Assembly (NCBI GenBank): GCA_903862955.1
Contig: CAIPAH010000011.1
Coordinates: 1-64,000 of the forward strand
Origin: an uncultured Opitutia bacterium
GTDB taxonomy: Bacteria > Verrucomicrobiota > Verrucomicrobiia > Opitutales > Opitutaceae
DNA length: 64,000 bases
Direction: 5' to 3'
A program made the position numbers and the translations under genes. Shown piece by piece: positions 1,875 through 6,379 of this stretch; within the stretch, counting starts at the first letter, position 1, and each line of letters begins with the position of its first letter. The notes below the pieces were generated by a model. That model was not told the DNA's origin and made no database searches. It saw only the letters and a program-made list of their open reading frames with translations.

Positions 1875-2321
1875 TCAGCGATTCGGGCTCGCGTTGCCCG
1901 CCGGCTCTTCTGCGGCCAGGGTGATATTGGAACCGAATCCCGCCTCACGCGCCGCACTGACAATCTCGTTCTGCACCGAGACCGGCACTCCGGCGCTCAT
2001 GCGCACCAGCAGCGACGGGTGCTTGTTCTTCTTCGCCTCGACCTTCAGCCACTCGCGCAACTGCGCCATGCTGAGGAGTCCGTCGGCGAAAATCTGCCCG
2101 GAGTTTTTCACGCTGATCGTGCTCGTCGTCAGCGCCCCAGGCAACGCGCCGGGCATTTCCGGCAGCTTGAAATCCACGCCCAAGCCCGGGGCCAGCACGA
2201 AGCGCGAACCGAAAACGAGGAAGAACAAAACCAGCGCACCGACGTTCACGTAAAAGAACGCATCGAAGCTCCGGGGCTCCGGGCGCAGCTTGCTCGCGAG
2301 ATCCAGGGGACGCGTGATCAC
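1875..2321 (-). CDS. exbD: ExbD/TolR-family protein with Asn in place of the membrane Asp
   Basis: A 148-residue protein with a short cytoplasmic tail, one membrane segment (about 21-38) and a periplasmic domain, as in ExbD/TolR proton-motive stators. The GTG start overlaps the exbB stop (GTGA), which argues for translational coupling. The usual family segment has an Asp at the start of the membrane helix, as in E. coli ExbD Asp25. Here the aligned residue is Asn26 in VNVGALVLFF, followed at the expected spacing by FVLAPGLGVD. ExbD Asp25 is reported as essential for proton use in E. coli, so this protein may be inactive as a proton channel or work with another ExbD. Family assignment rests on topology, size and the ExbB neighbour. 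Confidence 0.88.
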   Translation of the reverse strand: MITRPLDLASKLRPEPRSFDAFFYVNVGALVLFFLVFGSRFVLAPGLGVDFKLPEMPGALPGALTTSTISVKNSGQIFADGLLSMAQLREWLKVEAKKNKHPSLLVRMSAGVPVSVQNEIVSAAREAGFGSNITLAAEEPAGNASPNR

Positions 2322-2989
2322 GGCTTCTCCCCCGCCCCGCCCTCGCCCGCCGCGCCGTTGGCCGGGCCCGCGCCGCGATAATCCGTCAGCAGATACTTCA
2401 TGATCTCGTTGCCCGACCACTCCACGTCGCGGACGATCGCCCGCACGCGGCCACTCAGGAAATGATGCGCGAGGTGGGCCGGGATCGCGAGCATCAGCCC
2501 GCCCGCCGTGCACAGCAGCGACTGCCACATGCCCTTCGCCAGCACGCTCGCGGTGGCGTAGTCCCGCTCGAACGCGACGAATGTCGTGATGAATCCCAGC
2601 ACCGTGCCCAGCAAACCGACGAGCGGTGCGACCTGCGCGACCGCGGCAATGCTGCCAAGCCGGCGCTCGAGCGCGGGCAGCTCCACGATCGCCGCTTCCT
2701 GCACGTGAAAACGCATCGTGTCCGCGTCATCGTCTGCATGCAGCAACGCCGCCTTCACCACCGCGGCCACCGGGCCCGGCGTTTCCTCGCAGACGGTCAG
2801 CGCCTCGACGATGCGGCGCTTGGCCAGGATGTTCTTGATGCCGCTGATGAATGCGGTGGAGCGGATTTGCCCGCGATGCAGGTAAAGCGTCCGCTCGATC
2901 ACGAGCATCAGGCACAGGAGGCCGAGCACGAGCAGCACCCACATGATCGGGCCGCCTTTCGCGAAGAGACTGAATTCAAAAACGGACAT
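2318..2989 (-). CDS. exbB: ExbB/TolQ/MotA-family proton channel protein
   Basis: A 223-residue inner-membrane protein with three membrane segments near residues 14-33, 115-139 and 154-177, the ExbB/TolQ layout. The MotA/TolQ/ExbB signature is visible as APLVGLLGTVLGFITTF (residues 121-137) and TAGGLMLAIPAH (161-172). The start MSVFEFSLFAKGGPIMW matches the typical short N-terminus before the first helix; longer in-frame starts have no family similarity. The C-terminal tail is Gly/Ala-rich. It forms a tight operon with the TPR protein upstream (64-base gap) and exbD downstream (overlapping stop and start). It likely powers an envelope process with proton-motive force. Confidence 0.95.
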   Translation of the reverse strand: MSVFEFSLFAKGGPIMWVLLVLGLLCLMLVIERTLYLHRGQIRSTAFISGIKNILAKRRIVEALTVCEETPGPVAAVVKAALLHADDDADTMRFHVQEAAIVELPALERRLGSIAAVAQVAPLVGLLGTVLGFITTFVAFERDYATASVLAKGMWQSLLCTAGGLMLAIPAHLAHHFLSGRVRAIVRDVEWSGNEIMKYLLTDYRGAGPANGAAGEGGAGEKP

Positions 2990-3053: not shown

Positions 3054-5645
3054 TCAGCGCTTCGTCTCCGGCAGGTGGAAGCGCGCGAGCCGCGCCTGCG
3101 CGAGTTCCTCACCCGGCGCGAGGTGCGCCTCCAGGATCAGGCGGTACGCATCCTTCGCCTGCTCGAGTTTTTCCTGCGACTCGAAGAGCGCGCCGAGTTC
3201 GAGCAGCGTCCGCGCCATCCAGTAACGGCCCTTCGAGCCGAGTTGCGCGGCGATCGCGGGATCCTTGACGAGGAATTCATGCACGACGTCCTTCCACCAG
3301 ACCTCCTCCGCCCGCCCGGCGTCACCGCGCCGCGCGTAGAGATTGCCGAGGTTGAAGCCCGCCTCGACGCGCACATCCACCGGCGCGTCCACGCGGTCGC
3401 GCAGGTGCTCGAAGAGGACAATCGCTCGCTCCGCCTGGCTGGGGTCGTTGGCGGATTGCGCGTTGTGACACTCCGCCAGCGCGAGCTGCGCGAGGATCAC
3501 GTCCTTGTGCGCGACGTAGTTGTTCACGAGCGTCTCGTAAACCTGCTGGGCCTGCGGAAACTGGTTCAGTTTTCGCAACAGGTCGCCCTGCTTGAGCCGC
3601 GCGTAGAACACCAGGTCGCTCTGCGGATACTTCTTCACCAGGTCCTCGATCAGCCGGTTGGCCTCGACGAAATTCGCGTCCTGGCCGCGTCGCTCCGCCT
3701 GCAGCGCCGCCTGGTAGAGCGCGTAGGGCGCGTAGGTGTTGTCCGGAAATTCGTCGGCGAGCTTCGTGAACAGCTGCTGGGCCTCCACGGTCTTGTCCTG
3801 CTTCTCGTAGTGCTCGGCCTCGACAAAGTAGGAATACACCGCGGCGTCCGAGCGCGGAAAATCCACGCGCAGTTTTTTCAACAGGTCCAGCGCCTCGCTT
3901 TCGCGACCGAGCGCAAAGCTCGCCTCGCCCTTCAGCAGCGCGCCGGTGCTCTGCATCTCATTCTTCAAGTCCGACGCGACGCCCTCGAGCTTGCCGGGCA
4001 GCGCGTCGACGAGCTTGAGCGTCGACTCCGGCTGGCCCGCCTCCAGCGACAGCCGCGCCTGCAGCCACGCCATGCGCGCCTGCAACTCCGGCGGCAGTTG
4101 CCCCGGCAGGAGCCGCGACTCCGCCAGCAGCCGGTTGATGCGGTTGTAAGCTTCCGTGGTCTGGTCATGCGCCTGCAGTGCCCGCGCGAGATTCCACTCC
4201 GCCTGCCAGCGGTTCACGGCGTCGAACGCCGGGTCCTTCGCGAGTTCGTCGAGCACGGTCTGCGCGGTGTCGAGCGAGCCCGTCTCAATCTCGGCGAGCA
4301 CCCGCTGGAACATCAGGTCGCCCGGCTTAACTCCCGCTGGCGGTTCGCGCAGGGTCGCCGCATACGCATCCGCCGCGCTGCGAAAATCCCGCGCCCGGAA
4401 CCACGCCTCGGCCACCAGCACGCCGAGCTGGGCGTGCTCCGGTCCCGCCGGCAATTCCGCGCGGGCCTTGGCCGCGTTGTCCGCCGCCGTGCGGTAGCGC
4501 AGCTGCGCCCAAGCCGAGCCGGTCAGCACGCCGAGCGCATGGGCCTTGAGCGGTGAGCCCGGAAATTTCTGCAGCAACTCATGCGCATCGTCCTCGGCCT
4601 GCGCGTAATTCCGGTCCGCCAGGGCGAGCTCGGCGCGAAACAGCAGCAGGTCCTCCAGGATGGGATGCGGCGCGGGCAGGTCGATCAGGGCATCCAGCCG
4701 GTGACGAAATTCCGAGCGGGCCGGCTCGTGCGCTGACACGCGCGCGAGCAATTGCAATGCGACACGCTGTTTGTCCCGGTCCGCCCCGTCGCGCAGAAGC
4801 TCGTTCAAGGCGTTGCGCCCCGCACCTTCCTCCGCGCCGGAGATCAGGCCCAGCACCAGGCGCGTGCTGTCCAGCTCGTCCCGCTCCTCCGCCGGCATCG
4901 TCGCCAGCTGCCGTTGCAGCAGCGCCACCGCCTCGCTCTTGCGCCCGAGCGCGTCGAGCAGCGCGGCATACGTGCGGGCAAACCCGTAGCCAATCCGGCG
5001 TCCCTGGTATTGCTCCAAATTCTTGCGCTGCGCCTCGGCATCCGCCTCCGACACCGGCCCCACCCGCAGCCGGGCCTGCTCGCGCGCCAGAATGAATCGC
5101 GCCCGCGCAAAGCTGCTGGGCGCCGCGCTTTCGGCCTGTTGGTAAAATCCTTTCGCCCCGTTCACGTCATTCGCGACGTCGGCCACCAGGCCCTGCAGAT
5201 ACAAGTACCAGGCCTTGTCCGCCGCGGACAAGTCGTCGGCCTTGACCTGAGCCACATCATTGCGTGCCGCGTCCACCTTGCGCTGCTGCATCGCCGCCAG
5301 CGCCGCGCGCAGGTGCCAGGCCGCGCCGCGCAGGCCCACGAAGCCCTGCAGCGCCTGTTCCGCTTCCGCCGCGCGTCCGTCGTCGAGCAAAGCCGTGGCC
5401 AGGCCGAGCGTCAGCCGCGAGCGGTCCCCTTCCGGCCGCGCGAGCAGGTTGCGGTAAAGCTCAGCCGCCACCGCCGGGAAACCCATCTCCTGCGCGCGAT
5501 CGGCGGCAGCCAAGGCCAGCGCGTCATCGCCCGCGGACGCCGCCAGGCTCACCCGCACGAGCGGCACCGGCGAATTGAGGGGTGCCTGCGCGCGGGTAAC
5601 GAGCGCTGTGCCGAGCCCGAGAAGGAGAAAAAGTCTGAAACGCAT
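3054..5645 (-). CDS. Large exported tetratricopeptide-repeat protein
   Basis: An 863-residue protein with a signal peptide (MRFRLFLLLGLGTALVTRAQA), so it is probably periplasmic. Most of the rest is alpha-helical repeats with TPR-like spacing of small and aromatic residues. Examples are EMGFPAVAAELYRNLL near the N-terminus, the segment around AEHYEKQDKTVEAQQLFTKL, and LYQAALQAERRGQDANFVEAN further on. TPR proteins of this size are often found just upstream of exbBD in Verrucomicrobia-like genomes and may scaffold the complex. The start at MRFRLF was chosen because it gives a proper signal sequence; the upstream in-frame start does not. Partner and cargo are unknown. Confidence 0.88.
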   Translation of the reverse strand: MRFRLFLLLGLGTALVTRAQAPLNSPVPLVRVSLAASAGDDALALAAADRAQEMGFPAVAAELYRNLLARPEGDRSRLTLGLATALLDDGRAAEAEQALQGFVGLRGAAWHLRAALAAMQQRKVDAARNDVAQVKADDLSAADKAWYLYLQGLVADVANDVNGAKGFYQQAESAAPSSFARARFILAREQARLRVGPVSEADAEAQRKNLEQYQGRRIGYGFARTYAALLDALGRKSEAVALLQRQLATMPAEERDELDSTRLVLGLISGAEEGAGRNALNELLRDGADRDKQRVALQLLARVSAHEPARSEFRHRLDALIDLPAPHPILEDLLLFRAELALADRNYAQAEDDAHELLQKFPGSPLKAHALGVLTGSAWAQLRYRTAADNAAKARAELPAGPEHAQLGVLVAEAWFRARDFRSAADAYAATLREPPAGVKPGDLMFQRVLAEIETGSLDTAQTVLDELAKDPAFDAVNRWQAEWNLARALQAHDQTTEAYNRINRLLAESRLLPGQLPPELQARMAWLQARLSLEAGQPESTLKLVDALPGKLEGVASDLKNEMQSTGALLKGEASFALGRESEALDLLKKLRVDFPRSDAAVYSYFVEAEHYEKQDKTVEAQQLFTKLADEFPDNTYAPYALYQAALQAERRGQDANFVEANRLIEDLVKKYPQSDLVFYARLKQGDLLRKLNQFPQAQQVYETLVNNYVAHKDVILAQLALAECHNAQSANDPSQAERAIVLFEHLRDRVDAPVDVRVEAGFNLGNLYARRGDAGRAEEVWWKDVVHEFLVKDPAIAAQLGSKGRYWMARTLLELGALFESQEKLEQAKDAYRLILEAHLAPGEELAQARLARFHLPETKR

Positions 5646-5776: not shown

Positions 5777-6379
5777 ATGAGCATCGCCCTAATCATCCTC
5801 CTCGTTCTGCTCGCCGTTGTGGTCGTCCTCGCCCTCTGGGCCACCGGCATCTACAACTCGCTCGTCACCCTCCGCAACCGGTTCAAAAACGCGTTCGCCC
5901 AGATCGACGTCCAGCTCAAGCGCCGCTACGATCTCATCCCCAACCTCGTCGAGGTCGCCAAGGGCTACATGAAGCACGAGAGCTCCACCCTCGAGGCCGT
6001 GATCAAGGCCCGCAATATCGCGCTCGCCGCGTCCCAGTCCGCCGCCGCCAACCCCGCCGACGGCAACGCCGTGAAGGGCCTCGTCTCCGCCGAGACCGGC
6101 CTCAGTGGCGCCCTCTCGCGGCTCATGGTGGTTTCGGAGCAATACCCCGACCTCAAGGCCAACCAGAACATGCTCCAGCTGACCGAGGAGCTCACTTCGA
6201 CGGAGAACAAGGTCTCCTTCGCCCGCCAGGCCTACAACGACAGCGTCATGACCTACAACACGACGCGCGAGACGTTCCCCAACGTCATCTTCGCCGGCAT
6301 GTTCGGCTTCCTCCCCGCCGAGCTCTTCAAGATCGAGGATCCCACCGAGCGCAACGCGCCCAAGGTCAGCTTCACCTGA
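5777..6379 (+). CDS. lemA: LemA family protein
   Basis: A 200-residue protein with an N-terminal membrane anchor (residues 3-25) followed by the LemA coiled helical domain. The family block YNSLVTLRNRFKNAFAQIDV and KRRYDLIPNLVEVAKGYM are clear, and the C-terminal part has RETFPNVIFAGMFGF, a frequent LemA ending. LemA function is unresolved; it often neighbours membrane proteases of family M48 and TPM-domain proteins. Here it opens a plus-strand trio with a YbjQ-family protein and an M48 protease. The leader before the ATG is C-rich without a Shine-Dalgarno. Confidence 0.96.
   Translation: MSIALIILLVLLAVVVVLALWATGIYNSLVTLRNRFKNAFAQIDVQLKRRYDLIPNLVEVAKGYMKHESSTLEAVIKARNIALAASQSAAANPADGNAVKGLVSAETGLSGALSRLMVVSEQYPDLKANQNMLQLTEELTSTENKVSFARQAYNDSVMTYNTTRETFPNVIFAGMFGFLPAELFKIEDPTERNAPKVSFT

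Follow-up and report, generated by a model that had tools for sequence, protein, structure and literature searches.

The ExbD-family protein encoded at positions 1875..2321 (−) of the window, that is, the whole stretch of 64,000 nucleotides that was analysed, carries asparagine (Asn26) at the site of the membrane aspartate of ExbD and TolR (Asp25 and Asp23, respectively). The change is family-wide and recurs across the class, which is taken to be Verrucomicrobial judging by its named relatives; the earlier note on this DNA had spotted the Asn and missed that extent. Loss of the Asp was linked to loss of a pore-ring threonine in the partner ExbB, no acidic residue consistently took its place, and the genes were found to be under constraint. 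That the pair is kept and evolves under constraint despite repeated loss of the Asp suggests that it does a job without being a proton motor. The pair is related to proton-driven motors that energise uptake across the outer membrane. Judged from sequence, the probability that the operon encodes a retained, de-energised ExbB-ExbD-TonB-like complex, a 'pseudomotor', is put at roughly 60%.

The membrane Asp of ExbD and TolR is called 'absolutely required' in the available part of a 2026 review (PMC12905483), and the ExbD variant D25N as well as the TonB variant H20A are described as inactive in the accessible text of PMC11658791. The window frame was confirmed as 148 codons plus stop; the protein of 148 amino acids, which starts at a GTG and opens VITRPLDLASKLRPEPRSFDAFFYVNVGALVLFFLVFGSRFVLAPG..., comprises a single membrane helix and a periplasmic domain. 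Its score with the PF02472 (ExbD/TolR) model passes the curated cut-off narrowly (29.7 vs 25.4 bits), and a structure search with the single ExbD sequence retrieved no ExbD of known structure. When a profile of 48 orthologs was used, the membrane segment was aligned to E. coli ExbD (6tyi_Y; E 4e-14) without gaps around the site, and Asn26 was placed on the Asp of NVTPFID, which is residue 25 given the printed start at 14. Frame check and profile alignment thus confirmed that Asn26 replaces the membrane Asp, as had been claimed. An AF2 model of the protein consisted of a helix (residues 19-41) and a periplasmic domain (mean pLDDT 64), and Foldseek returned five matches at E<=1e-3, all of them ExbD periplasmic domains.

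The Asn26 codon (AAC; 2244..2246 (−)), assigned by profile alignment and genus comparison, was AAC in 12/12 genus members examined, which rules out a point mutation or an assembly error as its source. The point-mutation alternative, for which close relatives would carry Asp, was not borne out: the close relatives have Asn and more distant ones Asp. Median dN/dS within the genus was 0.20 for ExbD, 0.15 for ExbB and 0.21 for the TonB-like protein; these Nei-Gojobori values are rough, as dS was often about 1.

All genes of the run lie on the minus strand in the order exported TPR protein, ExbB, ExbD, TonB-like protein. The ExbB/TolQ-family partner (2318..2989 (−)) has 223 amino acids from its ATG (residues 8-230 of P0002) and scores 87.1 bits with PF01618; its closest solved relatives are TolQ chains. 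Its stop overlaps the ExbD start by 4 nt (GTGA, 2321-2318), and the next ATG follows the ExbD stop after a gap of 4 nt, so that the description of an intact gene in a tight operon holds. Both pore-ring threonines of ExbB, the equivalents of E. coli Thr148 and Thr181, are Thr in the window, the latter being Thr168 of P0002 (2507..2509 (−)). In TM1, Gly30 of P0002 (2921..2923 (−)) was aligned with TolQ Ser28 through a weak ungapped stretch (−0.6 bits); Asp-type relatives have Ser or Ala at this site.

The TonB-like protein (P0003; 1148..1870 (−)) has one N-terminal membrane helix, a DPTPLFLPTxWN motif and a C-terminal stretch resembling TonB. A profile of the protein gave a borderline match to TonB 9ddz (E 0.019, 39 positions), TonB_2 matches were obtained for 2/48 members and were weak (best E 0.061), and an AF2 model built from seven rows (pLDDT 45) had no Foldseek match at E<=1e-3. 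On this borderline evidence, the C-terminal part may be related to TonB. The membrane helix of the window protein holds no motor-docking His (SHLS motif). A TonB-like gene was present in 167/187 loci searched, and three of the 20 misses were canonical ExbD loci of this genome. The first gene of the run codes for the exported TPR protein (3054..5645 (−)), its start at 5645 being the Met ahead of an apparent signal sequence as judged by eye. Almost every order locus examined that had sufficient DNA on the upstream side, Asp or non-Asp, carries a TPR gene there (exception L053); outside the order, only L218 matched. The Ttp accessory proteins of Vibrio may also have a TPR likeness.

The window ExbD had matches at E<=1e-3 in 50/57 relatives, 189/200 genomes of the family and 126/196 genomes of the order. 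The other 70 order genomes, several of about 1 Mb, had no match to this single ExbD query. A profile of the ExbB group matched in 368/384 class genomes at E<=1e-40, a count that may include other ExbBs, since low-scoring families (e.g. f30) lie outside the rows read. For the order alone, a first tree comprised 169 rows, 69 with Asp and 100 without. Outside the order 72 loci were read, taken mostly from the best-scoring ExbB among the matches listed; four yielded no ExbB-ExbD pair, and the remaining 68 pairs had Asp (24), Asn (21), Gly (9), Thr (6), Ala (4), Ser (2), Gln (1) or a gap (1) at the site. The class sample thus amounted to 237 pairs (93 Asp, 143 non-Asp, one gapped), with Asn in 112 of the 143 non-Asp pairs, Gly in 9, Ala in 8, Thr in 7, Ser in 4, Leu in 2 and Gln in 1. 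Many genomes are drafts, and the sample leans towards one family and, beyond the order, towards families with high scores. The trees omit five of the 183 initial rows (L036-L040), which duplicate genus operons filed under a second source; L184, also a duplicate; L075 and L149, which contain too many gaps; and loci where no adjoining ExbB could be read. L172 was retained as an Asp row though it resembles a canonical ExbD. In-frame stops occurred in the matches at L043 and L082 (genus g11) and at L084 (G164), for which decay or assembly error is possible. At L122 (G082), two ExbD-like fragments lie in different frames, again a possible case of decay or assembly error.

On a maximum-likelihood tree of ExbB and ExbD (237 rows), from which the trait columns were excluded, the Asp state changed at least 17 times; for the order alone, five changes were seen. 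The window ExbD falls in a clade of 88 rows (branch support 96), none with Asp: 84 have Asn, 2 Ala and 2 Ser, and 87 belong to the family of the window. In the alignment across relatives proposed in the earlier note, Asn is shared by the 12 genus members read and the 88-row clade lacks Asp, whereas 93 of the 237 class pairs retain it. Parsimony at the midpoint root assigned nine losses and eight gains of Asp, so the direction of single events is not fixed; these counts come from one quick tree, a single tree method and uneven sampling. Family f10 has an Asp-bearing ExbD (L054) that groups within a poorly supported clade (25 in one tree, 51 in another) of ExbDs lacking Asp, most of them from small genomes; either Asp was regained or the tree is in error.

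The available parts of two papers (PMC12905483, PMC12215075) place ExbB Thr148 and Thr181 at the pore together with Asp25. The hydroxyl at Thr181 (Thr or Ser) was present in 93/93 Asp pairs and in 90/143 non-Asp pairs, i.e. it was lost in 53 of the latter. On the tree, 16 losses of this hydroxyl mapped to branches without Asp, which total 77.9 units, against none on the 62.7 units with Asp (binomial p=1.3e-4), and a likelihood ratio preferred a model in which change at Thr181 depends on the Asp state (p=1e-7 for the class sample). The order alone gave 11 losses versus 0 (p 0.001; likelihood p 4e-6). Independent-pairs sign tests had too few informative pairs and did not reach p<0.05; they never pointed in the opposite direction.

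Loss was confined to few positions. Thr148, likewise essential, remained Thr in 135/143 non-Asp rows. Drift of the entire complex would be expected to erode other conserved columns as well, yet of the 44 columns conserved in Asp rows, 35 were still conserved to at least 90% in the rows without Asp. Seven conserved columns dropped below 75% in non-Asp rows: in ExbD, Asp25, the Pro/Ala three residues ahead of it and one other; in ExbB, Thr181 together with its preceding residue, the Gly three positions beyond Thr181 and the Ser/Ala site of TM1 that corresponds to TolQ Ser28. Solved complexes described in the accessible part of PMC12215075 have TonB Ser16 and His20 in contact with ExbB Ser34 and Trp38, and TolA His22 in contact with TolQ Ser28.

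Of the order rows, 51/62 with Asp and 0/90 without it have the docking His in the TonB-like protein; calls for L114, L183 and L167 were adjusted by eye, and L157 was dropped. Outside the order it was present in 23/23 Asp rows and, by script, in 26/32 non-Asp rows, including L254 and L289, in which the scored His appears to lie outside the helix. Since most rows of the non-Asp type beyond the order keep the His, docking can persist once the Asp is gone, and the link between His and Asp is confined to the order of the window. Loss in a set sequence (first His, next Asp, finally Thr) was considered, as the states were nested in 152/152 order rows; it was rejected because L221, L227 and L229 outside the order keep the His without the Asp.

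The suggestion that another acidic residue takes the place of Asp25 found no support, as no membrane column of ExbD or ExbB gained an acid in the non-Asp rows as a group (screen: more than one quarter of the rows and 20 points above the Asp rows, helices judged by eye). The helix core of the window ExbD holds no titratable residue. A charged residue or His was present from four residues before to 14 after the site in 94/143 non-Asp rows; most of these charged residues are the Arg or Lys of a GSR motif at the periplasmic end, five rows have Asp in the end motif, and the single cases differ. In ten of the 143 rows a titratable His lies three residues ahead of the site. Two candidates for compensation were rejected: (i) an Asp shifted six residues earlier (Asp20; Asn in E. 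coli), because an acid is common there in both types (78% of non-Asp and 55% of Asp rows); (ii) replacement of ExbB Glu176 by Gln, because this site is mostly Gln in both types (44 Gln and 18 Glu among the 69 Asp rows with ExbB). In five loci of the window's genus (L010, L012, L014, L016 and L017), the Glu176 site holds His instead of Gln, beside Val or Phe at Thr181. L210, the only ExbD above the cut-off in a 0.8-Mb genome of family f7 (G349), has Cys at the Asp site, a titratable substitute unique among the rows read.

These data bear on the possibility that the complex is still ion-driven by a route without a carboxylate, be it a water wire, a different ion or polar groups (Asn, Thr148, Gln in place of ExbB Glu176). 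The retention of Thr148 and, in 90 non-Asp rows including that of the window, of the Thr181 hydroxyl favours such a drive and counts against the pseudomotor, as do the His kept in most non-Asp rows outside the order and the His three residues ahead of the site in ten rows. Yet no conserved titratable membrane group stands in for the Asp, Gly, Ala and Leu are among the replacements, the Thr181 hydroxyl was lost on non-Asp branches only, and the Glu176 site is mostly Gln whether or not Asp is present. We therefore consider a drive by another route unlikely. Among the guesses offered in the earlier note, uncoupling from protons is the one favoured by the data, given that the Thr181 hydroxyl was lost only where Asp is missing and given the His pattern in the order.

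A search for a second exbD in this genome (G000) revealed four more ExbDs (loci L001-L004 on contigs C8, C7 and C14), all with Asp. On C14, two of them lie in tandem after a single ExbB, and a nearby frame starts with a His-bearing membrane helix. As a control, 55 distinct other ExbD genes (57 rows), the best-scoring PF02472 matches of this genome and 43 searched genomes, were read and all had Asp. Twenty further stretches, mainly of lower-scoring matches, gave 29 rows, 27 of them with Asp; a stretch with a match below the cut-off (L333) contributed no row, and together the controls cover part of the 195 PF02472 matches. The exceptions were L337 (Asn), which is closer to the group profile of the window (5.5e-25 vs 3e-16), and L344 of genome G394 (Ser), which had been picked as a probable group member and fits both profiles about equally.

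In 13/13 tested small genomes (0.8-1.3 Mb, 64-93% complete; families f7, f15, f25 and f27), the single PF02472 gene above the cut-off lacks the Asp, with Asn in nine, Ala in three and Cys in one. One of them (G340) has a second PF02472 match, below the cut-off, within a frame of 3626 residues. Provided that the assemblies lack none of the genes, the 13 cells are without any Asp-bearing ExbD. The pattern is not general: in family f40, outside the order, the only ExbD of a closed 0.9-Mb genome (G402) carries Asp, and another genome of the same genus (G394, closed, 0.9 Mb) has one Asp ExbD and one Ser ExbD. G402 had no ExbB of the window's group at E<=1e-40. A further genome of the Asn type (G048, 1.3 Mb) has three PF02472 genes; the two that were read both have Asp.

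Accordingly, the idea of a regulatory ExbD beside a second copy can apply to this genome, with its four other Asp ExbDs, and fails as a general account, since all 13 small genomes have a sole non-Asp copy. In its specific form, the Asn-type ExbD would form a mixed dimer, as its silent member, together with the Asp ExbD of another operon and would tune that motor. Such a dimer fits the Asp of the four other ExbDs and of almost every further ExbD read in genomes of this kind, as well as the Asp-bearing and Ser-type ExbDs that coexist in G394. It is at odds with the sole non-Asp ExbDs of the 13 small genomes and with the covariation of Asp with Thr181 of the operon's own ExbB, which points to the local ExbB as the partner, and is regarded as quite improbable.

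Less credible still, and in our judgement very improbable, is a misalignment, or paralogy between the Asp and Asn genes, with no Asp ever lost. The low PF02472 score and a sample lacking lower-scoring class members would leave room for it. Against it stand the ungapped alignment to E. coli ExbD obtained via the 48-row profile, the sharing by both types of the same ExbB, of the TonB-like gene in most cases and of the neighbouring TPR gene within the order, and ExbB scores that set the group (4.6e-46 or better) apart from the other ExbBs of this genome (2e-17 or worse). A decaying relic devoid of present function is extremely improbable: several motor residues were lost together, 70/196 order genomes lack a match to the single protein and G402 lacks the group ExbB, but the open frames, the tight overlapping operon, dN/dS of 0.15-0.21, the group ExbB profile match in 368/384 class genomes and retention in 13 genomes of 0.8-1.3 Mb all speak against decay.

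Under the pseudomotor reading, ExbB would most likely still form a pentamer around an ExbD dimer (5:2). Asn in place of Asp would neither take up nor release a proton, and hence a proton-driven stroke would not be expected. The available part of PMC9389320 describes MotB D22N as a mimic of the protonated state; as Asn resembles protonated Asp, the ExbD helix pair may be fixed in one state. Selection would then keep the envelope-spanning body, i.e. the ExbB cage with the periplasmic domain of ExbD plus the TonB-like and TPR proteins, and the complex might serve as a tether, as a platform for assembly or as a channel that stays sealed. Besides the retained Thr and His residues, the undirected tree events, the independent-pairs test and genomes G402 and G394 count against the pseudomotor. 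For the broader proposal of a class-wide natural pseudomotor family, whose core function does without the Asp so that Asp was discarded many times while the relay drifts and the scaffold stays fixed, the chances appear evenly balanced.

If this broader proposal is correct, 5:2 complexes would have a further role in the envelope that needs no energy, and there would be reduced cells lacking any proton-driven ExbD motor. Loss of Asp with linked loss of Thr separates the role of the ExbB-ExbD body from that of proton flow, and the Asp and non-Asp relatives are ready material for testing a non-motor role and for defining proton-relay residues. The results also caution against annotating every ExbD as an energiser.

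Compared with known systems, the operon resembles TonB-ExbB-ExbD of E. coli and S. marcescens in its protein families, the ExbB-ExbD order, the single-helix TonB-like partner and the Thr148 and Thr181 sites; it differs in that Asp25 and the docking His are missing, Gly occupies the Ser site of ExbB TM1 and a TPR gene comes first. Likeness to TolQ-TolR-TolA lies in TolQ being the best solved relative of the window ExbB and in the expected 5:2 architecture, whereas an equivalent of Asp23 is missing and the four genes of the run include no tolB or pal. Loci of Planctomycetes and Verrucomicrobia with the order TPR, tolQ-like, two tolR-like and vWA genes, described in the available part of PMC12204202, share the phylum group and the TPR gene beside a tolQ-like gene. 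These loci have two tolR-like genes and a vWA transducer with an SHLS His, in contrast to the one ExbD and the TonB-like protein of the window, and the tandem ExbD pair on C14 fits their description there better than the window operon does. A conserved Asp is mentioned in that part of the paper; its loss is not. Vibrio TonB2 and TonB3 with accessory Ttp (PMC6957404) likewise combine ExbB-ExbD-TonB with extra partners and differ in serving iron uptake. The mutants MotB D22N and ExbD D25N represent the same chemical change made in the laboratory, while the Asn of the window is the natural state of a clade. No report of a natural ExbD or TolR family without the Asp was recognised among titles and abstract starts of the open literature, a search that leaves bioRxiv preprints and most subscription papers outside, and this is weak evidence that such a non-Asp ExbD family is new to the literature.

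As to the surroundings of the operon, a tRNA-Thr (GGT) is located just past its end (978-1053 (−)). A divergent neighbouring frame at 5777-6379 (+) is followed by a short frame and then by a frame resembling a membrane peptidase. By eye, the divergent neighbour resembles LemA, and the next-but-one frame is presumably peptidase-like.
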